Both the position numbers and the translations under genes were made by a program. Of a stretch of 64,000 nucleotides of DNA, positions 3,985 to 61,400 are shown piece after piece. The DNA comes from Sipunculus nudus (Eukaryota; Annelida; Sipuncula; Golfingiida; Sipunculidae), in assembly GCA_026874595.1 (NCBI GenBank), contig CM049319.1, forward strand, positions 60,274,917 to 60,338,916. Direction: 5' to 3'. Numbering within the stretch: the stretch's first letter is position 1; the number at the start of each line of letters is the position of its first letter. The notes beneath the pieces were generated by a model that saw only the letters and a list, made by a program, of their open reading frames with translations, was not told the DNA's origin and did no database searches.

Positions 3985-4763
3985 ATAGTCTGTACTCGAA
4001 ATCCATCCATAACCGTTACACCGCTCAGGCAATAACTAGGGTTTCTACGCCGCAGTTTTGCCTCTTCGGGTCCCCCTCATTCTGCACTGAGGTCGCCAGA
4101 ACTGACACGCCAGCTAGCCAGCTAGGTCCGGCCCGCCCTCGCCAACCGTCAACCACCGAGGAATCCCCCAGGTGTTCCGGGAGCCTGAGCCTCGCAACCT
4201 GCCAGTAATGTCCGAGCGCTACCGGCCTGCCCCTGGACTGTTCGCAGTCCCGTCATGAGCCTTGTCCCTTTCGACCAGGTACAGCTCTCGTTCGATCGGA
4301 GCCTTCTCGGGAGCCTTCTCGGGAGCCTTCTCTGGTGCTTTTGCCATCATGTCTTGAGCCTTGTCCCTGCTGGTCCTGACCGGACCCCCGGTTATTTTGA
4401 CGTCTTGGAGCCTTGTCCCTGATCCTTTCGGGATCCCCGTAACTTTTTCCACCAAACGGCTGGCTCTACAGGGCCAGGTTCCATACTGCCGGCAACAGGC
4501 TGGCCTACTCTTCTATCGAAAAACAGTATGGGGTCTTTTACGTGCCCGTCCCCTTCTGGACACGGGACCGCCATTTAACGTCCTCATCCGATGGACGGCC
4601 CGTGTTTGTCTTTTGCAGGCGGGCGCTGCGGTGCCCCGGAGCCTTTCTACCCTTCCCCCACTTTCTCTAGTGGGGTGATAATACTGGGTTTCCGTCTGCC
4701 ACTGATCTTTTGCCAGTCGAGTAGAGTCTGCCACTGATCTTTTGCCAGTCTGTACTCGAAATA
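3985..4763. other. GC-rich island flanked by a ~15-bp direct repeat
   Basis: About 750 bases much richer in GC than the surroundings are bounded by 'AGTCTGTACTCGAAAT' at ~3986 and ~4748. Inside are three tandem 'GGGAGCCTTCTC'-like units (~4299-4331, an APEK-type repeat on the - strand), repeated 'GAGCCTTGTCCCT' and two copies of 'TCTGCCACTGATCTTTTGCC' at ~4697 and ~4728. Frames are broken and no domain is recognised. It looks like the relic of an inserted element of different composition. Confidence 0.4.
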
Positions 4764-4878
4764 TGGTGCTGCGCTTCTTATATCCTTCAGAGTACGCAGA
4801 AGCGGTTCCAGTGGGAGGGTCCAGGATTTCCGGACACGCTCTCCCCCCCCCCCCCCCCCTTTTCAGCCAACGCGGCCA

Positions 4879-6016
4879 TTTTTAGCTCAGCTGGCTATAG
4901 ACGTGGTCCATTGTCCGTCTGTCTGTCCGTCCGTCCGTAGATGTGGCACGTTTTGAAACCGTAAGACTTAGGAATAAAAAATTTGGCATAATGTTAGATG
5001 TCCGAAAGATCTATCAAGCCAAAAACTTGGTCTTTGCGACTTCGTTTCTTTGAGAAATTAAGGAAAAACCTCAATTTTTTTTATTAAAAACATATTTTCA
5101 CACTTCAGTACTGCCTAATATCAAAACCACTCATCTTTTTATCCTCATATTTACCATAAATATTCCTCTATATGATACCAAGTACATGCAAGAAATTAGG
5201 TCTTTATTATATAATTTTAAAAAGTATTGCTCTTAGTAAAATATCAGGAAAAATATTTGATCACTTAACACAAAAAAATGTCAAAAGACTTTTTCAGTAA
5301 TAAAACTTTAATTAATAATAATTTAATTCTATACCCAAGATTAGATTAAAATCTTTAATTTTTTTTAAATCTTAGCAAAAATACAAAATTGGTACCATAA
5401 ATTTTGCTCAAATTTGACCATGGCACGTATATTTAATTAATTTTTATATAAATGTGGATTTAATCTGTTGAATTCTGAAATTTGAAAGTAAAAGCTTAAA
5501 AATTATTCTAATTATTGAAGTTTTTTCAGATGCTCTAATGTATTTGGATTTTGTATATCCAAGACCCCACTCTTGCTCACTACAGCTTGCCTAGGTAACC
5601 TTATAAGTGATGCAGCACTGACAGAACACCCCTGCTGTAATAAACATACACTTATTCTCATGGGCCCTACCCTAGGTCCCCCCCCACCACCAATTACTAG
5701 TATATTGCAATACATGGTTTGTTATTGTCAACTGTATTTCTTTAAATGTAAAGCTGTTTTTGATTCAATGTGCACAACTTTTCTCGTAATATTAATTCAA
5801 GAAGTAATCCAAGAGATGCCACGTTGATCTGATGTAGCATTTTAAAGAAATTATTTCCTTTTAAATAATTAAACAAAATATAATTTAACCCATCATTAGG
5901 CATAATTTGATAAAATATGAAACAAAGCGTGGATAAATAAAGGTGCAATTGAAAATTGTGAATTCTGGAGTGTTATTCTCATATATTTATTGCTTTGCAA
6001 ATTTAGAAAATATATT

Positions 6017-20280: not shown

Positions 20281-23200
20281 CATGCAGAGAGATGGAAAAC
20301 AAAGCAAATAACTTTAATTTCCATTCTACTGAGACAGGAAAATAATGAACAAATATTTGCATATGATCCTATTTTTTCTTTTGTTAAGTCATTTTTTTTT
20401 AAGTTTATAAATTTTACTATATATTTGCAGTACATCATATATATCTGAATATTTGAATTGATTCACAAATCTATATTGCATCAACATTTATATATATATA
20501 TATATATTATAAAATATTTTTAATTTTGCAAAGCAATACTATATATGAAAATAACACTCCAGATTTAACCATTTAAATTGCACCTTTATTTATCCATGAT
20601 TTGCTTCATATATTATCAAATTATGCCTACTGATGGGTTAAATTATATTTTGTTTAATTATTTAAAAGGAAATAATTTCTTTAAAATGCTACATCAGATC
20701 AACGTAGCATCTCTTGGATTACTTCTTGAATTAATATTTCAACAAAAGTTGTGCACATTGGATTTAAAACAGCTTTATATTTAAAGAAATACAGTTGACA
20801 ATAACAAACCATGTATTGCAATATAATTGGTAAGGTGGTGGTGTGTGTGTGTGGGGGGGGGGGGGGACTGGGGGGATGTTAGGGAAGGGCCCATGAGAAT
20901 AAGTGTATGTTTTTTACAGCAGGGCCGTTCTGCCAGTGCTGCATCACTTACAAGGTTACCGAGGCAAGGCTGTAGTGAGCAAGAGTGGGGTCTTGGATAT
21001 ACAAAATGCAAATACATTAGAGCATCTGAAAAACTTCAATAATGTGGTAATAAATATAAGCTGTATTATGAGTTGTTGTTGTTAAGCTTATGTATGATTT
21101 TGATAGTGCCTTTGGAGACAGGGAAGAGGATTGATTTCCATTTTATTAACAAATGGAGTATACTATTGTCACACAGATTTTGACTTGGCCATATAACTTA
21201 TAAGCAGAACATATAATATAAGAGTTTAACTATTTATTTAAAAAAATTACAAATATTGTCCCAAATATAATTTTTATTAAAAATGATAAGAGAATCGTAT
21301 AATTTTTAAAAATGAAATATAACTGAAATGAGTACATATTCATATTCGTATTTAAATACAATTGCAAAGTATTTGCACCATATCTGGTATTTATTCAGTT
21401 TTCACCAAACAATGACGTTGAGAATCCAGAATATACAAAATTCACACATTTAAATAATGATCATAAGTACCTGGTTTTATGGCTTTTATTTATATTAAAA
21501 AAAATAAATGTAATATATTCATTTTGGACTAATTTCACATCAATGTACACACTAGACACAGTAGGAATCTAGATTAATATTATCAACTGCATCTTTGTCT
21601 ATCATTAATTTCCTTCATATGATCCCTAATGATTAGTAATGAATAATATGATTTACTTTTTTTATCATTAAAATTGAACTGAAAAATACCATAGGTGATT
21701 GCATGGTGTTATTTGGAATACGTGATATTCTATCCATCGATACAAGATTCTTATATCATCAGTTACTGTAAGTTAATTTCCTGTTATTATAAACTAACTA
21801 ATTCCTTTTCTATTTTTCTTTAATTTGTTATTAAAAACCAAAAAAATATATTCATTTATTGTTTATTGTTTTGTTGTTGGTTAAAACTACTGGATGAGTT
21901 GGGTCGGACACATGGATTAACTGTGGCTGGCCATAAGCTGCCTGGCTGCCCCAGTGTATGGGTAGCCTCAAGCATGCATAATTTGCTGAAAGTTCAACAA
22001 GGTCAACATACAGGTGACTCAAGAGGGGCTGGAGAGGGCCAAGGTCTGACATGGTCTCATAAAAACATTAATAAAAGCTACAATTTTTGGCCAATTTCTT
22101 TCAGCTTTCTAAACTAAAAAGCTGAAATCCTTATGTGTGCACGATATGAAAATTCTATCAACAGTGCTCACAGGAAACAAACGTGCCATGGTCAAAGTTG
22201 GGCAAAATTTAAGGTACTAATTTTATATTTATACTAGTAACTTATAAAATTTGAAAAATTCAGAACTAATTTTGGGTATTCAATTGAATCTTGATTAAAT
22301 AATGTTACATCCCTGACGAAAAAATCTCTAGCTTCAGCAATCCCCTTGTTAAGGGAGTAAATATATTTCTTGATTTTTTACAAAGTGCATTATGTTTGGG
22401 CCCATAACTTAAAACAATTACGCAATACTGACATCATTTCTGGCATGTGCACAGAGAATGTATAGAAAAATATGTATACTATATATGATTATAAAGTCAG
22501 ATCAGTGGTTTTAATATTAGGCAGTCTTGAAGTTTAACAATGGGTTTTTACTGGAAAAATGTAGTTTTTCATTAATATCTCGCAGGTATTAAGTCCTAGT
22601 GACCAAATTCTTGGCATGGTAGGGGATTTTGGAGACATCTAATTGTATGCCAAATTTTAGGAACTGAGAGCTGAAGCTGGGGAGCTGAGCTCTTACAAAC
22701 TGCATATCACTAGCTTGATGTAAACAATATGTTACATGGTGCTTGAAAACTTGAATAAAATCTACAGTGTTTGATCACCTGGTTTCAAATTTTTGGTGCT
22801 AACAGACAAAATGCTAACAAAAACATGATGTGAAAATTAAATCCTCAGTACTTACAGGAAAAAACGTGCCATGGTTAAAGTTGGGCAAAATTTAAGTTAC
22901 CAATTTTTTATTTTTAATATTTTAAAAAATTTAAAAGATTTTGATCTAATTTTAGGTATACAATTTAATTTTTATAAATTAAAGTTATATAACTGGAAAA
23001 AAGTCCATAGCTTCAACATGTTTTGTGTTAAGTGATCAAATATCTTTCCTGATTTTTTACAAAATGCATTGTTTGGGCCCATAACTTTTTTAAATTATAT
23101 AATACAGACATAATTTCTGGCATGTACATAGGAACTATATAGAGGAATATTTATGGTAAATATGAGGAAAAACATATGAGTGGTTTTGATATTTGGAAGT

Positions 23201-23450
23201 CCTGAAGTGTGAAAATAGGTTTTTAATAAAAAAAATTGAGGTTTTTCCTGAATTTCTCAAAGGAACGAAGTCGCAAAGACCCAGTTTTCGGCTTGGTAGT
23301 AGATCTTGGGGACATCTAACATTATGCTGAATTTTGGATTCCTAGGTCTTACGGTTTCAAAAAGTGCCACATCTACGGACGGGCGGACACACGGACGGAC
23401 AATGGACCACGACTATAGCTCAGATGACTTACAGACAGCCGAGCTAAAAA

Positions 23451-24546: not shown

Positions 24547-26203
24547 CTAAAAAAGATAAACCACAAGAACCTTGCGTCAGAAACTGATAACACAAGCTTT
24601 TCGTTCAATTGTCCGCAATAAACTACTATCATTAACCTGAAAGTACATTCTGCCGACTCCACGGCTGGCATTTCTCGCTGGCACATGGATATTTTTCAAA
24701 ACAGTATTTACATACATTATTTCCTGTGACATCAAAACGTTAAGCTCTCTCCACGTTACTGTCATGCGTTCTGCACATGAGGTCACTTTTGATGCACCTA
24801 TCATGTTAGAATGATTCACAAATTGCATACTATTGCAATTAATAATTTTAAGATTACTTTTTTTTATTGCAAATAAATATTCATGTATACTACGAAGGAA
24901 CAAAAAAAAAAAACTTGCAACTTTTTCTAATCATTACTAGCTTAAATACACAGAATTGAATGATCTCCAATTTTATAGAAGCTCTACCTAAGAATCGTCA
25001 ATAAATCATCAACGACAGGTTCAAGACATAGTCCAAGTATAAAATATTTGTATTAAGCTGTATTCACCTGCTTGTCCCCATGCTTATCAGCGGTCTCATG
25101 CAGCGTCAGCAGGGACTGGTTGACGTTCTTCTCCAGTTCCAATGCTGCCTGCATGGCATCCAGGCCGGTCCCCCAGTTCTCCTGGTCAGGAGCTCTGATG
25201 TCCGTCAGCTTGATGCGGCCTCCACGCTGGTTCTGGAATTTCATCAGCTTTTCGGCGTGCTCGCGCTCTTCTTCGCTTGCTTTCTTGAAGTACTTGTGGA
25301 ATCCAGGTAGAGCCACATCGTCACGATCAAAGTACCAGGCCTGAAATTAACAGGACACATCAGTAATAATTTAAAAGCAAGCAAATAGTTAAAGAAGTTT
25401 TTTTTTTACCCGTTAATTCAAATACCAGAATTTTCAAAGCAATAGTAACCCCTTGTGTGAAAATTCTTTAAGGCCACTATCAGCAAATAGAAGTCGAGCA
25501 AATTAATGTCTATATACAAAAAAAAATAAAATTCTGTAAAATGAGTTTATATTAACAATTTCATAGAGGCAAAAAAAATTTAGCATTGAAAATGGTATCC
25601 TGTTGTCGGATACGTAATGAAATATGCAACATTTTCATTTTTTGCAATTTATTAACGAATATTTATATTTCATGCAAGTTCCTTGTTGATACCGACATAC
25701 AATTTCTCGAGTCAAGTGATTATTAATCCAGAATTTCAGAAAACCCCGCAAAGGGTGAACGGCAAACAGTTCCCTATATTATAGGCCAGCAAGCTCCCTT
25801 TTGTCCCCATGTTTAAGGCCATTGACGTCAAGCCTTTAGCACGTGATCAATGATGACCGCATTTGACCTACATTATGCCCGCTTGGAGACGACACGTTTT
25901 CACCGGCCGCCATTTTGTTAAATATACTTCAACCTTGGCCATAAAATTGAAAACAATTTTTCTAAATTTTCGAATGCGACAACCGCTGCTTTTGTCATAA
26001 ATGTGTTCAATTCTTGCATAACATCGATGAAATGGACAAGATACTCATTTAAACTTGCTGTGGCGCGCACAAAACCCCTCACAAGTCGTCATCATACTCA
26101 CCATGGATTGGTAGGTGTAACTGGCGTACAGCTCGAGGTTTATTTGCTTGTTTACCCCGGCTTCGCTCTCTTCATGGTAGTTCTGGCGTGGTCTAGTTGC
26201 CAT
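24400..26203 (-). CDS. Ferritin, heavy (ferroxidase) type, three coding exons, 173 aa
   Basis: This is a cytosolic iron-storage subunit of the kind that assembles as a 24-mer cage and oxidises Fe(II). Coding exons on the - strand are 26203-26102 (34 codons), 25340-25068 (91 codons) and 24546-24400 (48 codons plus TAG). All junctions are GT-AG and phase 0. The family signature is clear: [20 protein letters not shown], then [32 protein letters not shown] and [10 protein letters not shown]. The ferroxidase ligands are all present: E24, Y31, E58, E59, H62, E104 and Q138, equivalent to human H-chain 27, 34, 61, 62, 65, 107 and 141. The three-fold channel acids D128 and E131 are kept. There is no signal peptide, so the product should be intracellular. 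The start ATG opens the RQNYH motif and lies in the same exon as a 5' UTR carrying an IRE-like hairpin. The length is typical of soma-type ferritins. Confidence 0.96.
25068..25340 (-). CDS. Ferritin coding exon 2
   Basis: Encodes residues 35-125 from AWYFDRDD to GDKQ, between acceptor TTTCAG and donor CAG|GTGAAT. It carries ferroxidase ligands E58, E59, H62 and E104. The upstream intron (25341-26101) and downstream intron (24547-25067) hold nothing recognisable. Confidence 0.95.
26102..26203 (-). CDS. Ferritin coding exon 1
   Basis: Encodes residues 1-34 (helix A start, E24 and Y31) and ends ...YQSM at the donor ATG|GTGAGT. It is contiguous with the 5' UTR. Confidence 0.95.
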
Positions 26204-26289
26204 CTTGATACTGTTATGTGAACTTGGTCTGAAGATTAACACTATTTTATCAATACAGAAGCTTTTCTGCGATATCTTCTTGTCGAATA

Positions 26290-26321
26290 TTGCCCGTACG
26301 TTCACTGACGTCCCAAGGCAA
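26290..26321 (-). promoter_or_regulatory. Iron-responsive-element-like hairpin in ferritin 5' UTR
   Basis: On the - strand the hexaloop CAGTGA is closed by ACGT/ACGT, and an outer stem TTGCC/GGCAA surrounds it. IRP1/IRP2 bind such CAGUGN hairpins near the cap and block ferritin translation when iron is low. The canonical unpaired C six bases 5' of the loop is not present: the interval between inner and outer stems is 5 nt on the 5' side (TTGGG) and 3 nt on the 3' side (ACG). It is either a divergent IRE or one with a larger internal loop. The position, about 17 nt from the inferred cap, fits function. Confidence 0.75.
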
Positions 26322-26361
26322 ATCAACGACAACTGTTCTAGTGTGACGCAGCAGACAGCGG

Positions 26362-26369
26362 TTTATATA
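26362..26369 (-). promoter_or_regulatory. TATA box of ferritin
   Basis: TATATAAA in the context GCGTATATAAAC lies on the - strand. A start about 30 bases downstream (~26338) would put the IRE-like hairpin within ~20 nt of the cap and give a ~135-nt 5' UTR without an intron. Confidence 0.65.
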
Positions 26370-33888: not shown

Positions 33889-34478
33889 AGGGCGTATGCA
33901 CTTAAGCCACAGGCAAGCTGATGTAGGGGCAAACAAGCTAGGGGCACAGCATCTTGACATCGGTCAGATGCAGGCTGTATCACTAGCTGACCACTCGGGG
34001 GTTACAGTCCTATCATTGATCAATCATTAAATATGGATGCAAATTTCAGCAAAAAATCTGTTAAAGAGTTACAGTTGTGTCTGAAAGAAAGAGGGGTTGT
34101 AGCAGCACAAGCAAAGAAAGCTGAGCTAATTGACTTGTGTAATGCTAGCCATGAAATGGGATTAGAGGTGGACCCAGATGGCTTGATTGAGGACAGGGAG
34201 GAAGTACTGGGTGATAAGTTAATTACACCAAAGAAGGAGGCACACAAAACCTAGGTGTCTTACCAGTCCTGTCAGTGTTTGACATTTACAATTATTTTAT
34301 ATCGTTTGAGGAGTACAATATGTGAAACCTCAGGGAATACTATAACATGGAAAGGCACACCATGGCAAAGGATGGGTATGTGAAACACATCGAGGTACAT
34401 CAGTATCACAGGGATACTTGCTTTGCAGTAAAGAGTAAAGTGAAGCCAAGAACATGGGAGAAGGACCCTGTCACTAAT
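33889..34478 (+). mobile_element. TIR element Y (SAP/SWIM/YqaJ type), outer copy, truncated
   Basis: Starts at AGGGCGTATGCACTTAAGCC and runs ~590 bases, nearly identical to the start of the inner copy at 34479. It is interrupted at CACTAAT by that copy. Just after the inner copy's right end, TTTAAACCACTATTATATA resembles the expected continuation (TTCAAACCACTATAATGTA at ~35103), which supports one copy having inserted into another. The remainder of the outer copy is missing, replaced by a Mutator-like element. Confidence 0.75.
34033..34254 (+). pseudogene. N-terminal SAP-like fragment, outer copy of element Y
   Basis: This open frame of 73 codons starts at ATG, with KKSVKELQLCLKERG and KKAELIDLC motifs typical of a SAP DNA-binding helix pair (leucines spaced as in LKxxLxxRG...KxxLI). 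It then has an acidic linker with DGLIEDREE. It ends at a TAG where the inner copy has an insertion that keeps the frame open longer. The gene is truncated by the nested copy. Confidence 0.6.
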
Positions 34479-36113
34479 AGGGCGTATGCACTTAAGCCAC
34501 GGGCAAGCTGATGTAGGGGCAAACAAGCTAGGGGCACAGCATCTGGACATCGGTCAGATGCAGGCTGTATCACTAGCTGACCACTCGGGGGTTACAGTCC
34601 TATCATTGATCAATCATTAAATATGGATGCAAATTTCAGCAAAAAATCTGTTAAAGAGTTACAGTTGTGTCCGAAAGAAAGAGGGGTTGTAGCAGCACAA
34701 GCAAAGAAAGCTGAGCTAATTGACTTGTGTAATGTTAGCCATGAAATTGGATAAGAGGTGGACCCAGATGGCGTGATTGAGGACAGGGAGGAAGTACTGA
34801 GTGATAAGTTATTTACATCTGACAGAATCCAGCTTGAAAATCCAGGAAACTTCAAAGAAGGAGGCACACAAAACCTAGGTGTCTTACCAGTCCTGTCAGT
34901 GTTTGACATTTACAATTATTTTATATATCGTTTGATGAGTACAATATGTGAAACCTCAGGGAATACTATAACATGGAAGGGTACACCATGGCAAAGGATG
35001 GGTATGTGAAACACATCGAGGTACATCAGTATCACAGGGATACTTGCTTTGCAGTAAAGAGTAAAATGAAGCCAAGAACATGGGAGAAGGACCCTGTCAC
35101 TAATTCAAACCACTATAATGTATGGGTTATCCTAAGCAATGTCTCTGATGCCAGTCGCATTCATGCAGGGTACTGTTCTTGTAATGGGGGTCTAGATGGG
35201 GGTTGCCGACACGTTGTAGCTACATAGTTTGACATTGTTGGATAGATGGATAATAATTCTACCACAAGTGTCACCTTGGGCTCATGTACATGGACTAGAA
35301 AAGGTAGTAAAAAGGAAGTGTCTGTGCCGGTGACCCTGCTGGAGACATCTATTCAGGGAAAATCTAAGAATGCCAGCTCAGCCTACGAAGACAGGTACAA
35401 CCCTGTACCTGAGGGAGTGAATTTACCTTCTGCTGATGAGATTTTTAAGCGCATACAGATTTGTTGCCCAGAAGCCTGTATTTTAGATACAATGTTTACA
35501 AACAAAACACAGAAGCAAATGAATGATACAGTAACACCCCTTACAGTTTTGATACCTATAGATAACATAGGTATTTTCCTTTCAACACACAGCAGATATG
35601 GCTCATCAGGTTTTGAGGACTGTTTTTACCTTTAATGAAATACACAGATGCTAAATTAAACAAAATAGAGTTTGCAACTAGAGGACAGAATGAAAACAAG
35701 AACTGGTTTATTATGAGAAGGGGTTTATTGACAGCATAAAAATGTATCAGCTGACACATTCAATGGATGGTGATAAAACAGCCAGGGCCTTCCTGAGAGA
35801 CAGTGGTCTGAATGAGGCTGCATTACCACCTGCTGTCAGATACGGGTGCAAGTTTGAATCAAAGGCTATTAACACTTTTATCAAGTCCCAGAGGTATCAG
35901 GATTTTCAGGATTTGCCCCAAGACCACCTTTTTTTGTCATGGTGATTATCTATCTAAAGCTTTATGACAAACTTACAATAACATTAGCAAAATAGATACA
36001 GGTTCAGCCGATGTGCACACTGAGCCATATGCTAATACACTGCCCAGTGCCCAGCCCTGCCCCTCTGTTTGCCCCTACATCAGCCTGCCAGCTGCTTAAG
36101 TGAAGTGGCCCTA
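34479..36113 (+). mobile_element. TIR element Y, inner copy with both ends
   Basis: The 5' end AGGGCGTATGCACTTAAGCC and the 3' end, read in reverse as AGGGCCACTTCACTTAAGCA, form imperfect terminal inverted repeats of about 46 bp. They agree again over CTGATGTAGGGGCAAAC at their inner edge. Both copies are preceded by AAT, and an AT dinucleotide flanks the inner copy on each side. The 1635-bp interior carries the remains of one gene and no recognisable transposase. Confidence 0.75.
34623..35945 (+). pseudogene. SAP - SWIM zinc finger - YqaJ-like protein, decayed
   Basis: Segments in order are as follows. A SAP-like N-terminus at 34623 has an in-frame stop, where the outer copy reads through. 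A linker with TWKGTPWQRMGM needs a frame change near 34970. Next is 34973-35227 with KHIEVHQYHRDTCFAVKSK and a SWIM finger, CSCNGGLDGGCRHVVA (CxC...CxH), ended by TAG. Then 35246-35635 has a DRYNPVPEGVNLPSADEIF spacer. Finally 35742-35945 has PAVRYGCKFESKAINTF, which resembles the WG-x-x-x-E-x-x-A motif of YqaJ-type exonucleases. Proteins of this SAP/SWIM/YqaJ layout are common as uncharacterised multicopy proteins in marine invertebrates. The catalytic core of YqaJ is largely absent and at least three lesions exist, so no intact product is expected. Confidence 0.7.
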
Positions 36114-37452
36114 TTTAAACCACTATTATATAGGCACTCGGTAAAACCCGGAATATCCGCGGAATTTCCGAGGATATTCCGAGATTCCTCAGAATAAAAG
36201 TTAGAGCAATTTCCCTCGGCTGAGGACCAATGACAGTGGGAAAAAAATATCTAAACCTAAAGATTGAATAATAATCTTTATATTTTTATCAGGGTTCAGT
36301 TCTAATCTTCTACTTATTAATGTGTATTCAACGTTTTTCCGAGCCAGATCTGACCGGCCCGGGACGAAGGCAATGTTGTTGGGGCATCATACCTAAATCC
36401 GGCGACTTTAGGACAATTCTGGGAGAGTATAAACAGCTGACAGGCCTGGATAAAAAGGATATGACCAAATCGCCGGTAAAGCGAGTGAATTTGAGATTTA
36501 TCAGATATACTCTTCTTACTGATAATAAGATTATGGATTATTGTGGAAGGCCACAACTAAAGGAAGGGACGTGACATGGAGGCTTCAACAGTATCTGTGT
36601 CTACATTTACCACGTACTGGCATTATTAAAATTCCATTTTGTTATTATATTAGTTTAATGAACAAAGAAGACAACTTCCTCAGAAAAAAAAATAATTTAT
36701 TAACAACTGAACCGTAATAATCAAATGAAATATTTAATAATTGAAAGTAAATTCAGCCTCATGAAATACACCAGATACCAGTTATCAATGTATGAAATAT
36801 TTACAAATGACAAGTAAAAAGATGAAACACAAGTGATACCAGGTTTCAATTTATGCATTATGTACAAAAGAAAAGTAAAATGATCATGTAATATACTCCC
36901 TATACCAGGTGTTAATGTATGTATTATATTTACAAATGAAAAGTGAAATCATCATCTTGAAATACATTATGTACGTTACCGGGTGACAATGTATATGAAT
37001 GAGAGGAGAGGAATTAATATAGGGCTGTGCCCTGTTTTCCAATCCTCGTTGATGAATTTGAGATTCAATAAACCATTGAATGCATGAAATATTTGCATAT
37101 GAAAAGCAAATCGATAATGAAGTACATGTTACACAAGGTGTAAATTAAGACATGAAATATTTACATAATGAAAAGTGAAATGGTCATCATGTCAAATACA
37201 TGTTTTACCAAGTGACAATTATTGAAATATTTACAAATGAAAAGCGAAATGATCATAAAATACACGTTTTGCCTGGTGTCTATGTATGAACAATTTACAA
37301 TGTAACATTGAGAACAGTTAATGAATACTATAGTACATTTATAATTTTGGTTCTAACAGAGAAATAGTAAAAATAACACAAATACAGAAAATATGGATAT
37401 AAATTAACACACACCCTGATATATATCAACATATGATTACGTATGTAATTAG

Positions 37453-39168: not shown

Positions 39169-39660
39169 TATTCAATTATATATACTTGAACATTTTATAA
39201 AACAATTATACATCATAATCTATAGACATAATATATGAAATAATAATGAAACTAATGTGCTGTGAAAGAATTAAACGATGTTATGCAACAGGTACAAATT
39301 GATTTGTCAACAGAAATGGAGAAACAGTTTTTCACTTATGTGGTTTTAAGTGGGCCGGCCAAGTTGCCGTGGGCTGGAATCTCCGAGAATTCTCCTTACG
39401 CTTCCGAAATATGGGTAAACATGGCGGTCGTCCAGGGCCTTTTGAAAAGATGTTTATAAAATCGTCCGCTGTACCTTAATAATTGAAGATTAGAACTGAA
39501 CCCAAAGAAATGGGAAGATTATTATTCATTCCCTGTGGTATTGGTTCTTTTTTCCGACTTTCTTGAGTCGTCCGACGAGGGAAATCGCTTTAACTTTTAT
39601 TCCGAGATATCTCGGAATTTCCGAGGATATTCCGGGTTTTACCGAGTGCCTATTATATAG

Positions 39661-41021
39661 CGAAGTGCTTATTGACACACGGTCCGAAAGTCTCGGTTAC
39701 CTCGATTTGGAAGTCTCGGTTACCGTGTTTTGAGGTCTCGGGTACTGAGAATTGGGAGTCTCGGTTACCGTGTGTCACCAGTGGTCAGTCATGCGTACCG
39801 CAATTAAGCTGGCGCACCTTTGCCCCAATTAATCACTTTGATCACTGGTGTCCTAGATCAAAGGGCCAGGTAACTTCAAAGGCTACCCGGGAAACTGGGC
39901 GTCATGAAATGTAGTGTTTTTTTTTATCATTGCGAAAACGTTTCTTTTGCCTTATTGTAACAGGGGTTTTCCAGGGTAACTGTGTAATTAAAACTTTTTT
40001 TCAATGGCTATATATTTTCCATCTTTAACGCAAATTATAAACAAAAGTAATGTTCTGTAATATAAAGGAGATGCATAATTTTACAAAAAATTAAGCATTT
40101 TATTAAAGGTGGTGTTGTTTGAGAGTCATTAATTGTGTGTCCTAAGTCGAATTTATCGGCTCAAACTTTGATCTACCACCATAACGTTGATATTGATAAA
40201 GTCGCTAAGAAAACGTTGCATTGCATTGTACAAGCTATATTTGACTAATTTGAGCACATTTAGTCATAAAATATGAAATATGGTAGTTATTCTTATATAG
40301 ATATCCATTTCCATTTATTATAGAATAATAAAAATCGAAGTGCTTATTGACACACGGTCCGAAAGTCTCGGTTACCTCGATTTGGAAGTCTCGGTTACCG
40401 TGTTTTGAGGTCTCGGGTACTGAGAATTGGGAGTCTCGGTTACCGTGTGTCACCAGTGGTCAGTCATGCGTACCGCAATTAAGCTGGCGCACCTTTGCCC
40501 CAATTAATCACTTTGATCACTGGTGTCCTAGATCAAAGGGCCAGGTAACTTCAAAGGCTACCCGGGAAACTGGGCGTCATGAAATGTAGTGTTTTTTTTT
40601 ATCATTGCGAAAACGTTTCTTTTGCCTTATTGTAACAGGGGTTTTCCAGGGTAACTGTGTAATTAAAACTTTTTTTCAATGGCTATATATTTTCCAACTT
40701 TAACGCAAATTATAAACAAAAGTAATGTTCTGTAATATAAAGGAGATGCATAATTTTACAAAAAATTAAGCATTTTATTAAAGGTGGTGTTGTTTGAGAG
40801 TCATTAATTGTGTGTCCTAAGTCGAATTTATCGGCTCAAACTTTGATCTACCACCATAACGTTATGCATGACGTTGATATTGATAAAGTCGCTAAGAAAA
40901 CGTTGCATTGCATTGTACAAGCTATATTTGACTAATTTGAGCACATTTAGTCATAAAATATCAAATATGGTAGTTATTCTTATATAGATATCCATTTCCA
41001 TTTATTATAGAATTATAAAAA
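39661..41021. repeat. Recent tandem duplication, 675-bp unit
   Basis: Unit 1 (39661-40335) and unit 2 (40336-~41021) are almost identical, with a ~10-base insertion (TATGCATGAC) in unit 2 near 40865. Each unit begins with CTTATTGACACACGG and three to four copies of a ~27-bp motif containing GTCTCGGTTACC, closed by ACCGTGTGTCA, which makes a ~105-bp inverted-end block. Confidence 0.92.
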
Positions 41022-51024: not shown

Positions 51025-54000
51025 CAGGGTTGGGCGGGTAATACCCAGGCGGGTAATACCCCTTATTACCTGGGCGGGCAATAAGCCTTAAAACCCACAT
51101 GCGGGTTTTAATGGGCAATATGATTTGGGATTTTCTAGATGCATTCTTTTCAATTTCAGAATTGCTGCATAAAATGCATATAATCAAATAAAAAGGAAAA
51201 ACTACAGTGATTGTCCATGAAATAAGTTTAATACCAATAGATGAACAACATCACAGATATTAAAGAAGAAGCACACAAGCAAGAAATTGTGTCATGCACC
51301 AATACTATTATGAAACATCATGCATTAGGCCAGACTTTTTTAATTTTTCGGTTTACAAACCTGCCGACCTCCGATTTCCTCATTTCAGAAAAAAAATAAA
51401 ATTGGCATTTTGACTTTTTCCCTTTTACATTGCGTCGCCGAATCCAGCACAGTTGTTGACAAATGAATTGTTTAGTGACCGTGTGTATTAGATCACCTCA
51501 AACGTTAGACCTCTTATGATTGGCTAATAAGGTCAATTTCATAATGACAGATGGAGGGTTTAAGCCAATCACAATAGGGTATCCTTGGGCCATAAATGCA
51601 ATTGATTGGCCATCAAGTTGACAAAAGATTCAGCAGGGAAATTCAGAATTCTTGGAGAGTTTTCAAAGAAATTAAGGAACAACCTCAATTTTATTTATTA
51701 CAAAAACCTATTTTCACACTTCAGGACTGCCTAATATCAAGACCACTCATCTATTTTTCCTCATATTTACCAAAAATAATCCTCTATATAGTTCCTATGT
51801 ACATGCCAGAAATTAGGTCTGTATTATATAATTTAAAAAAGTTATGGGCCCAAACATAATGCTTTTTTGTAAATAATCAGGAAAGAATTTTGATCACTTA
51901 ACACAAAACTTGTTAAAGCTAAGTACTTTTTTCCAGTAATATAACTTTTATTAATCAAAATTAAATTGTATACCCAGAATTAGAACAAAATCTTTTAAAA
52001 TTTTTAAAATATTAGAAAAAATAAAAAATTGGTACCTTAAATTTTGCCCAACTTTGACCATGGCACGTTTTTTTACTGTTACTGCTGTGGATTTAATTTT
52101 CAAAGCATGTTTTAATTAGCATTTCAACTGTTAACATCAAAAATTTGAAACCAGTTGATCAAAAACTGTAGATTTTATTCAAGTTTTCAAGCACCATGTC
52201 ACATATTGTTTACATCAAGCTAGTGTTATGCAGTTTGCTAGAGCTCAGCTCCCCAGCTTCAGCTCTCAGTTCCTAAAATTTGGCATACAATTAGATGTCT
52301 CCAAAATCCCCTACCATGCCAAGAATTTGGTCATTAGAACTTAATTCCTTCGAGATTGATGAAAAACTTCATTTTTTCATTAAAAACCCATTGTTACACT
52401 TCAGGACTGCCTAATATCAAAACCACTAATCTGACTTTGATCATATATAATATACATATTTTTCTATACATTTGCTATGCACATGCCAGAAATGATGTCA
52501 GTATTGCGTAATTGTTTTAAGTTATGGGCCCAAACATAATGGACTTTGTTAAAAATCAGGAAAAATATTTACTCATGTTACATGAAAATTATTGAAGCTA
52601 GAGAATTTTTTTCAAGTATATAACTTTGTTTAATTAAGATTCAATTGTATACCCAAAATTAGATCTGTATTTTGTAAATTTTATAAGTTATTAGCATAAA
52701 CATAAAATCAGTACCTTAAATTTTACCCAACTTTTACCAAGGCATGTTTCTTTCCTGTGAGTACTGTTAATTTAATTTTCACAGCATGATAACATAAGTA
52801 TTTAATTTGTTTAAATCTGAAATTTGAAAATAAAAGGTTGAAAATGAGGCTAGTTATTGAATTTTATCTAGTGTTCTAGGCTGTTACATAACACCTTCAC
52901 TCCTTGCCTACTGCTTCTGTGAGTGTCTGGGTCAGGCTGGGTCAGGCAGTAATTACCAGAGAGCATTTCTCCTCTCTCTCTTTCCCTTTCTCTCTTTCTC
53001 TGCCAGTCTAGCTCTCTTTCTCTCTCTCTTTTTCTCTCTCTCACCCCTATGCCTCCCTTCCACCCTCCACCCCATTCTGTTGACAGGTACTGTAAACCTG
53101 ATTTATTAGATATATATGTTGATGCAATTAAGAAATGTGAATCAACTGAAATATTCACATATACATGTTTTACTCTAAATGTATTGTTACATTTTCAAAC
53201 CTGGAAAAAATGAGGAATTTATGTACAAATTGTTCATAATTTCCTGGCTCAGAAGAATGGGAATTAAAATGATTTGCTTTGTTTCTCTAGCTTTCTGCCT
53301 GTTTTGAATATTTAATAATTATGAATAAACTTTTTTTTCCCTGTAAGCACTGATTAGTTAAATTTCATATCCTGTACGTATATGCAAGGGAATTGTAACT
53401 CCCACTATCCCCTTCCCCCACCCCACTAAGTCCTTGCTCCTTGGCACTTTGAACAATAGTTCTATTGCTATAGCATAAAATTTAATAATTTGAAGAAAAT
53501 ATATACAGAGAAACATAGGCCTTGTAACTCCTATCATAACCCCCAACCATCAAGTTCTGCCGCCTGTGGAGTGGGGACTTTATAGCAACTGTATACATAT
53601 CATTAAATAGAAAAAAAAGTTTATTAACAAAAATTGGATCTCATTAGACAAATGTGTAAATGGTTGAACTGTCAACAGCCTGTCATAAAGGTATCCAATG
53701 GAAATGCATGGTCAGATCTTAAAATATTATTTGCAACAATTTCTTCAATCATATTAACCAACCATGGCCTAGATTACTTCTTTCTCTCAGACTTAATCTA
53801 CATTTCATAATATTTTAGATTTTAACCTTCCAAGTACTGTTGAATGCTCTGTCCCTCTCTCTCTCTTTCTCCTTTTCTCTCTACATCCAGCCCTCTTGCT
53901 GCCCACACTGTTTCCTTCTCCGAACCTCATCCCAATGTCAGCCTTGGTAAACGAGAACAATATGAATCAGATATATTCATATTTTTATATATTGTATAAC

Positions 54001-58400: not shown

Positions 58401-61400
58401 TGTTCACGATTTTGGTTCACAAGCAAGCCCTTGAAGTACAAAATAAATTTATTTCAAAGAATCACATTTATTTTTATAAACCACATGTATTTGAATACAC
58501 GCGTGTGGGTGGAACCGTGTGCTTACAGACTTCGGGATTAGTCGGAAATGTCCGGAAGTAGCAGGATGAATCGGAGAGGACAAAAGCTTGAGAATTCCAG
58601 GAGAAAATAACATTATAATGAAAAAGCAATAAATACACATATTTATGCTTTTATTGCATGGAACAAAAATGTCAACATAAAAGTGTCATCACTGAATCGA
58701 ACATTCCATACGGGTTGCATATTTTGCCATATAAAATTGAGATGGTTTATTTAGCAGTGATTGGTATGACACGCTCTCCGAAAATTCGCCGGGATTCTTC
58801 GGCTTTTATGTAGCTATAGGAAACTGATGGAAAGTTGTGTCAAGGGTGATTCGACGATGGGGGCAGGACTTCCCGCGCCTCAAGCTTGCACACCTGCAGG
58901 ACCTTCATGCAACTTGCATCACTTAATGAGTCATTCTGTGGTACTGGCACAATTGGTATAAATGTTATTAATACTTAACTCCTTGTATAAAGTCAAGACT
59001 TTAAAGGTGGTTGCTATAAATACCATTATTGATGGGTTATGAATGCCATTATATATAATTAAAAATATCGCGATATCACAGTATATAGCGATAAAATTTG
59101 AATAATTATCATGATATCAAAAACCCATATGGTCCCAACACTATAATCAACATGATTCCCAGACAAATTTAATTTGAAATCTTTCATCCGAACGATCATT
59201 CATCCGAACAAAAAGCTTGTCCCCCGAGGCGTTCGGATATTCGACGTTCTACTGTATGCTATTTTTATCCAGATAACGAACCTGAACACTTGTGTCTGTC
59301 ATTGTCAAGAGATTGTGTTAGTTACTGCATTTATTTTAATTTTTCAATCCTTCTAATAAATTGACCAACTAAAGCTTGTCCAATAATTTTCAAATTTCCT
59401 CTTATTTTCAACTAATTTTGGTAGGTTGGAAAGGTCTTTTCCATTGCTCTAGTTTGCACAGAATTACGTGTGACAGTTTATAGAATAAAACTTCATTTCT
59501 CTTTGTTTCTTTCTTAAAGTGAGTGATAATTTGTTCCTACCTCCAGGACTGCCATCCCATGGACATGTGCGGCGAGACGTTCTCAGGTTCTTACCAGGCA
59601 TCACATGATTGTCATAACAACACCAGCGAAATGGACTCCAGGGTGTGTGCCATGGATGATGACTGTGACCCTGACCAATATCAATACACCCCTGACAGGT
59701 CAGAATGTGATATTTGTTATGTCTTGCAGTATAACTGGTATTATCATAAGTTTGACTATTGAAGAAATGTTATATTGATTATCAGTGGATATTATGTGAT
59801 TATTTGAAAAAAAGTTACTGCTGAGTTTTTAGCTCAGCTGATTATAAGTCATCTGAGCTATAGTCGTGGTCCATTGTCCTTCGTCCGTCCGTCCGTCCGT
59901 CGATGTGGCACGTTTTGAAACCGTAAGACCTAGGAATCCAAAATTCAGCATAATGTTAGATGTCCCCAAGATCTCCTACCAAGCCGAAAACTGGGTCTTT
60001 GCGACTTCATTCCTTTGAGAAATTAAGGAAAAACCTCAATTTTTTATTAAAAACCTATTTTCACACTTCAGGACTGCCTAATATCAAAACCACTCATCTG
60101 TTTTTCGTCATATTTCCTATAAATAATCCTCTATATAATTCCTATGTACATGCCGGAAATTAGGTCTGTATTATATAATTTAAAAAAGTTATGGGCCCAA
60201 ACATAATGCATTTTTTAAATAATCAGGAAAGAAATTTTATCACTTAACACAAAACTTGTTAAAGCTCAGCACTTTTTTTCCAGTAATATTTCTTTTATTA
60301 ATCAAAATTAAATTGCATACCCAAAATTAGATCAAAATCTTTTAAATTTTTTAAAATATTAGCAAAAATAAAAAATTGGTACCTTAAATTTTGCCCAACT
60401 TTGACCATGGCACGTTTTTTTGCTGTAACTGCTGTGGATTTAATTTTCACAGCATTTTTTGTTAGCATTTCAACTGTTAACATTAAAAATTTGAAACCAG
60501 TTGATCAAAAACTGTAGATTTTATTCAAGTTTTCAAGCACCATGTCACATATTGCTAGCGTTATGCAGTTTGCTAGAGCTCAGCTCCCGAGCTTCAGCTC
60601 TAAGTTCCTTAAATTTGGCATACAGTTAGATTTCTCCAAAATCCCCTACCATGCCAAGAATTTGGTCACTAGGACTTAATTCCTTCGAGATATCAATGAA
60701 AAACTTCATTTTTCCATTAAAAACCCATTGTTACACTTTAAGGCTGCCTAATATCAAAACTACTGATCTGACTTTGATCATATATAATATACATATTTTT
60801 CTATACATTCGCTATGCACATGCCAGTAATAATGTCAGTATTGTGTATTTTTTTTTAAGTTATGGGCCCAAACATAATGCACTTTGTAAAAAATCAAGAA
60901 ATATATTTACTCCCTTAACAAGGGCATTGCTGAAGCTAGAGATTTTTTTGTCAGGGATGTAACATTATTTAATCAAGATTCAATTGAATACCCAAAATTA
61001 GTTCTGAATTTTTCAAATTTTATAAGTTATTAGTATAAATATAAAATAAGTACCTTAAATTTTGCCCAACTGTGACCATGGCATTTTTGTTTCCCGTGAG
61101 CACTGTTGATATTATTTTCATATCATGCACACATAAGGATTTCATCTTTGTAGTTTAGAAAGCTGAAAGAAATTGGCCAAATATTGTAGCTTTTATTAAT
61201 GTTTTTTATGAGACCCTGGTAGACTTTGGCTCTCTCCAGCCCCTCTTGAGTCACCTGTATGTTGACCTTGTTGACCTTTCATCAAATTATGCACGCTTGA
61301 GGCGAGAATCCAGGCAGCTTATGGCCAGCCACAGTTGATCCAGGTGTCCAACCCAACTCATCTAGTAGTTTTAACCAACAACATAACAATAAACAATAAA

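Follow-up and report, generated by a model that had tools for sequence, protein, structure and literature searches.

The ISL2EU elements are a group of the PHIS (PIF/Harbinger-like) DNA transposons that, according to the available text of PMC4482050, occurs only in animals, generates AT duplications in A|AT|T targets, and has terminal inverted repeats (TIRs) of 6–259 bp, usually starting with GG, with a mean length of autonomous copies of about 4840 bp. As described in the available sections of PMC4482050 and PMC9179366, most of these elements contain two ORFs, one encoding a DDE/HTH/THAP transposase and the other a protein with a YqaJ exonuclease domain. The locus described here lies in a 64,000-nucleotide stretch of Sipunculus nudus contig CM049319.1, which was analyzed as a whole and is referred to below as the window. 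It very probably consists of two nested, decayed and non-autonomous cut-and-paste copies of the ISL2EU type (PHIS), for which an intact relative presumably supplied the transposase, and it is a real but ordinary feature.

The repeat search of the window revealed two pairs of inverted repeats, 33886–33935/36066–36115 and 34476–34525/36066–36115, with 50 nt in each repeat and a complementarity of 84% in both pairs. An ungapped scan of both strands of the window with the left 46-mer gave 46 matches for the 46-mer itself, 45 for the other left end and 38 for the right end, against 24 for the next best position. The inverted ends of ~46 bp reported in the original prediction are thus real, but the span 33889..36113, which was treated there as one element, mixes two copies, running from the left end of the outer one to the right end of the inner one (Table 1). 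The second left end and gene start that had been noticed beside the element were confirmed: 33889–34478 aligned throughout with 34479–35104, with 14 mismatches in 590 aligned bases (counted from the alignment) and gaps of 34 and 2 bases. The left parts of the outer and inner copies are ~98% alike, the first ~600 bp of the decayed gene are present at the locus twice, and the description of a TIR-bounded DNA transposon with the gene inside holds for both copies. The inner element has the ends AGGGC...GCCCT, and base 36113 was counted as its flank.

Table 1. Positions of the two element copies, their ends, gene remains and target site in the window
Feature	Position	Strand	Basis
Older (outer) copy, split by the inner one; left TIR, leader and beginning of the nuclease gene	33889..34478	+	Alignment with 34479–35104
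Inner copy, 1634 bp, both ends present, interior truncated	34479..36112	+	Repeat search and 46-mer scan
Outer copy, left TIR, preceded by a flank ending in CAGAAT	33889..33935	+	Repeat search
Left TIR of the inner copy	34479..34525	+	Repeat search
Right TIR of the inner copy	36066..36112	-	Repeat search
Remnant of the outer-copy gene after the inner copy, 17/20 to 35103–35122; the last 3 bases may belong to the repeat from 36130	36113..36132	+	Repeat search, repeat edge
N-terminal part of the nuclease gene, outer copy, SAP/HeH-like	34033..34251	+	Pfam HeH, E = 0.019, below cut-off
In-frame TGA of the outer copy, common to the inner copy	34323..34325	+	Translation
Same in-frame TGA, inner copy	34949..34951	+	Translation
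Central portion of the nuclease gene, in a single frame interrupted by two stops; CSCN...CRH motif that resembles SWIM in its pattern only	34952..35632	+	No Pfam match
Beginning of the nuclease domain, similar to alkaline exonucleases; frameshifted, cut off	35635..35942	+	Pfam Viral_alk_exo, joined pieces
AT to the left of the inner copy, presumed half of its target site duplication	34477..34478	.	Comparison with CACTAATTCAAACC, the intact site within the inner copy
AT to the right of the inner copy, presumed other half of the duplication	36113..36114	.	Flank sequence

The gene of the outer copy breaks at CACTAAT, ending CCTGTCACTAAT, and the TIR of the inner copy starts right there; at the corresponding site the inner copy is intact and reads on as CCTGTCACTAATTCAAACCACTATAATGTATGG. 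Past the right end of the inner copy, the sequence ATTTAAACCACTATTATATA agreed with the continuation of the same gene in 17 of 20 positions, this resumed flank being short and less alike than the left parts. Without the AT, the agreement was 15 of 18 at the single predicted place, and one other place among ~128,000 on both strands also reached 15 of 18. Since the outer gene is broken at the left TIR of the inner copy, the inner copy is unbroken there and the sequence resumes past the right TIR, the inner copy is inserted into the outer one. Elsewhere in the window, no remainder of the outer copy was found. The edge of a repeat with an internal palindrome (36130–36323), which recurs at 39653–39473 with 77% identity, coincides with the end of the outer-copy remnant.

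The target of the inner copy is most simply read as A|AT|T with a duplicated AT of 2 bp, as in ISL2EU; this reading refers to one insertion event, and the same letters may be read as zero duplication, with the ends TAGGGC...GCCCTA in AA|TT. As AT is palindromic, a single insertion event cannot separate these two readings. The inner copy is flanked by the triplets AAT and ATT, and the left flank of the outer copy likewise ends in AAT. PIF/Harbinger proper was rejected, as these triplets do not form its 3-bp TWA duplication. The zero-duplication reading would resemble Spy, although the insertion site is TAATTC and not the AAATTT described for that group.

The beginning of the nuclease gene, which in the outer copy reads MDANFSKKSVKELQLCLKERGVVAAQAKKAELIDLC, lies 144 bp in from the left end, and the remains of the gene span ~80% of the inner element. 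By eye its N-terminus is SAP-like, in line with the original prediction, but the Pfam matches were to HeH/LEM and sub-threshold (E = 0.019 and 0.059), which weakly suggests a SAP-like start; the best match of the N-terminal piece among solved structures had an E-value of 0.38, with no SAP protein by name. The CxC...CxH motif, which had been taken as a SWIM finger, is present, but the loose pattern CxC(2-15)CxH was counted nine times across all six frames of the window, against 0–4 in each of 10 mononucleotide shuffles, and by itself the motif therefore proves little. None of the six gene pieces matched the Pfam SWIM, SAP or YqaJ models at E ≤ 1, and the profile match that would define a SWIM protein was thus not obtained. 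Besides the common TGA, the outer and inner copies each carry further lesions of their own.

The two pieces of the nuclease domain, joined by XX over the frameshift, matched Pfam Viral_alk_exo (E = 8.7e-06, 25.1 bits at a cut-off of 20), the first piece alone reaching 19.9 bits, while the second piece alone, which bears the PAVRYGxKxE motif, had no Pfam match. The match of the gene to the nuclease (alkaline exonuclease) family is modest, and the Pfam YqaJ model itself was unmatched. An E[IVLYF]K-type motif is expected in the rest of the nuclease core; as it is absent from the three + frames of 35800–36112, the remainder of the core appears to be lost. No NCBIfam matches were found for three gene pieces at E ≤ 1, and PHROGs gave weak matches, namely seven for the N-terminal piece (best E = 0.011), one for the middle piece (0.18) and none for the nuclease piece. 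A tblastn search of phages with the 94-aa nuclease piece (35665–35942) returned two records of one Streptococcus phage (lysin/holin, E = 4e-4, 31.6%), and among solved structures an endolysin (E = 0.036) scored better than the alkaline exonucleases (0.97). The lysin and endolysin matches were taken as probably due to chance, against the profile match to Viral_alk_exo.

No match to DDE or THAP domains was found with Pfam in the six gene pieces, nor in 20 of the 323 stop-to-stop stretches of at least 55 aa in the window, namely 10 chosen from the 25 longest and 10 situated within or next to the element. Protein relatives were sought in two scans of each collection: 1 and 17 stretches of viral_contigs and 13 and 75 stretches of genome_contigs fitted the pattern, none of which was confirmed, and the TIR pattern did not occur in viral_contigs. 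These misses say little about animals, since the scans catch close relatives only and covered viral and prokaryotic sequences. Matches to DUF2397 at 4516–4881 (E = 0.006) and to Mononeg_RNA_pol at 36320–36556 (E = 0.15) were below the Pfam cut-off and were taken as chance, and Rfam gave no matches in the window at gathering scores.

The window is repeat-rich, has a GC content of 36.8%, and lacks ORFs of 150 aa that begin with a usual start codon. The ORF at 26048–26362 (-) is ferritin-like (Pfam Ferritin, E = 0.007, below the cut-off) and contains what resembles the start of a ferritin. Taken together, these features give the window an animal character, in agreement with the host range of ISL2EU. 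Another repeat family is represented by a 2.1-kb inverted pair (21330–23450 and 61923–59826, 91.5% identical) and by related 1.2-kb copies at 51667–52829 and 60018–61168. Direct duplications, adjacent or nearly so, were found at 39661–40335/40336–41022 (97.8% identical), 47643–48307/48487–49155 (92.5%) and 14878–15695/15695–16532 (93.3%), and degenerate repeated units ~60–70 bp apart occupy 36725–37300.

A tandem duplication of one degraded element might also be expected to leave two directly oriented left ends, which here are 590 bp apart, but the break coincides precisely with the left TIR and the sequence it interrupts continues beyond the right TIR, which makes such an origin extremely improbable. 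It is also very unlikely, if slightly less so, that the locus represents an invertebrate lineage of TIR transposons that lacks a DDE enzyme and is mobilised by its only protein, the SAP-SWIM-YqaJ nuclease. The nuclease gene is indeed the only one recognised between the ends, and neither the six gene pieces nor the ORFs taken from the element matched a transposase; however, the gene is cut off, its last part has no E-x-K motif, and a stop codon is common to both copies. DDE enzymes typically generate short, staggered duplications of the target, which also counts against such a lineage. Moreover, the combination of an A|AT|T target and a YqaJ gene has been described for ISL2EU, where it is accompanied by a DDE transposase (PMC4482050, available text). 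The claim that the nuclease stands in place of a DDE enzyme is not supported: a YqaJ protein is the published second ORF of ISL2EU, beside the DDE/THAP transposase, and the missing transposase is most simply explained by internal deletion, as the inner copy has approximately one-third of the mean autonomous ISL2EU length and the nuclease gene itself is cut off.

It is improbable as well, though not to the same degree, that an unrelated TIR transposon, perhaps Spy-like or of another PHIS group, captured the nuclease gene from a host or a virus as cargo. Such a capture would agree with an insertion readable without duplication, as described for Spy in the available text of PMC4482050, and with one clam genome in which the domains of YqaJ and of herpesvirus alkaline exonuclease were listed as endogenous viral elements (PMC7826175, available part). 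Against it stand the position of the gene, which begins close inside the left end and whose remains cover most of the inner element, and the published organization of these groups, in which YqaJ is standard in ISL2EU, while Spy elements mostly carry one ORF only, for the transposase (PMC4482050, PMC9179366, available sections).

Under the preferred reading, that of nested ISL2EU-type copies, an intact relative elsewhere in the genome would have supplied a DDE/THAP transposase, which would bind the ~46-bp ends, excise the element and integrate it at AATT. The nuclease would be the element's own second protein; it may help to process DNA during excision or integration but would not replace the transposase. 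Internal deletion would have removed the transposase gene and some of the nuclease gene from the copies, which would have moved in trans. The TGA common to both copies suggests, as far as two copies can indicate, descent from a copy that was already defective, and therefore both copies probably moved in trans.

The locus matters mostly as a correction. Counts for some bivalve genomes place the domains of YqaJ and of herpes-type alkaline exonuclease among recombinases or endogenous viral elements (PMC10225492, PMC7826175, available parts). In scallops, the THAP, YqaJ and HTH_Tnp_4 families are named together among the mobile-element genes that have shrunk in one species (PMC10225492), and in the clam the YqaJ and herpesvirus alkaline exonuclease domains are among the most expanded of those listed as viral elements (PMC7826175). 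Both observations would be expected if YqaJ/alkaline exonuclease genes were often ISL2EU genes. Since the nuclease gene of the locus lies inside a transposon with ISL2EU marks, part of these bivalve counts may represent ISL2EU genes.

Compared with known systems, the gene shares the Viral_alk_exo match with the herpesvirus alkaline exonuclease and YqaJ families, but it is broken, truncated, situated in a TIR element and unmatched by the Pfam YqaJ model; its segment RGQNENKNWFIMRRGLLTA resembles a segment of the structurally solved alkaline exonucleases 2w4b and 2w45, but with an E-value of only 0.97. SWIM fingers also occur in MULE and KDZ/Zisupton transposons, which generate longer duplications of 8–9 bp; the locus has a SWIM-like motif as well, but its duplication is at most 2 bp. 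PIF/Harbinger proper and Spy belong to the same superfamily and have AT-rich targets, as does the locus (PMC4482050). Harbinger differs from it in 3-bp TWA duplications and a Myb/SANT second ORF, and Spy in the lack of duplication, the target AAATTT and mostly one ORF (PMC4482050, PMC9179366, available sections). Membership of the copies in ISL2EU is probable, not proven. They lack a transposase gene, which encodes the defining protein of the group, the inner copy is 1.6 kb rather than ~4.8 kb long, and the TIR starts with AGGG and not GG, a loose fit. The SAP-like and SWIM-like stretches have no counterpart in the available text on ISL2EU: the terms SAP and SWIM do not occur in that of PMC4482050, nor SWIM in that of PMC9179366, and in the available literature no report naming a SWIM finger in ISL2EU was found, the hits in PMC4746887 being to swim/Swimmer, nor a passage on a SWIM domain in connection with Zisupton. 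Meanwhile, the likeness to ISL2EU lies in a nuclease gene of the YqaJ/alkaline exonuclease kind (by the Viral_alk_exo match of the joined pieces only, with the YqaJ model unmatched), in a TIR length (~46–50 bp, 84%) inside the published range, and in a target readable as A|AT|T with an AT duplication.
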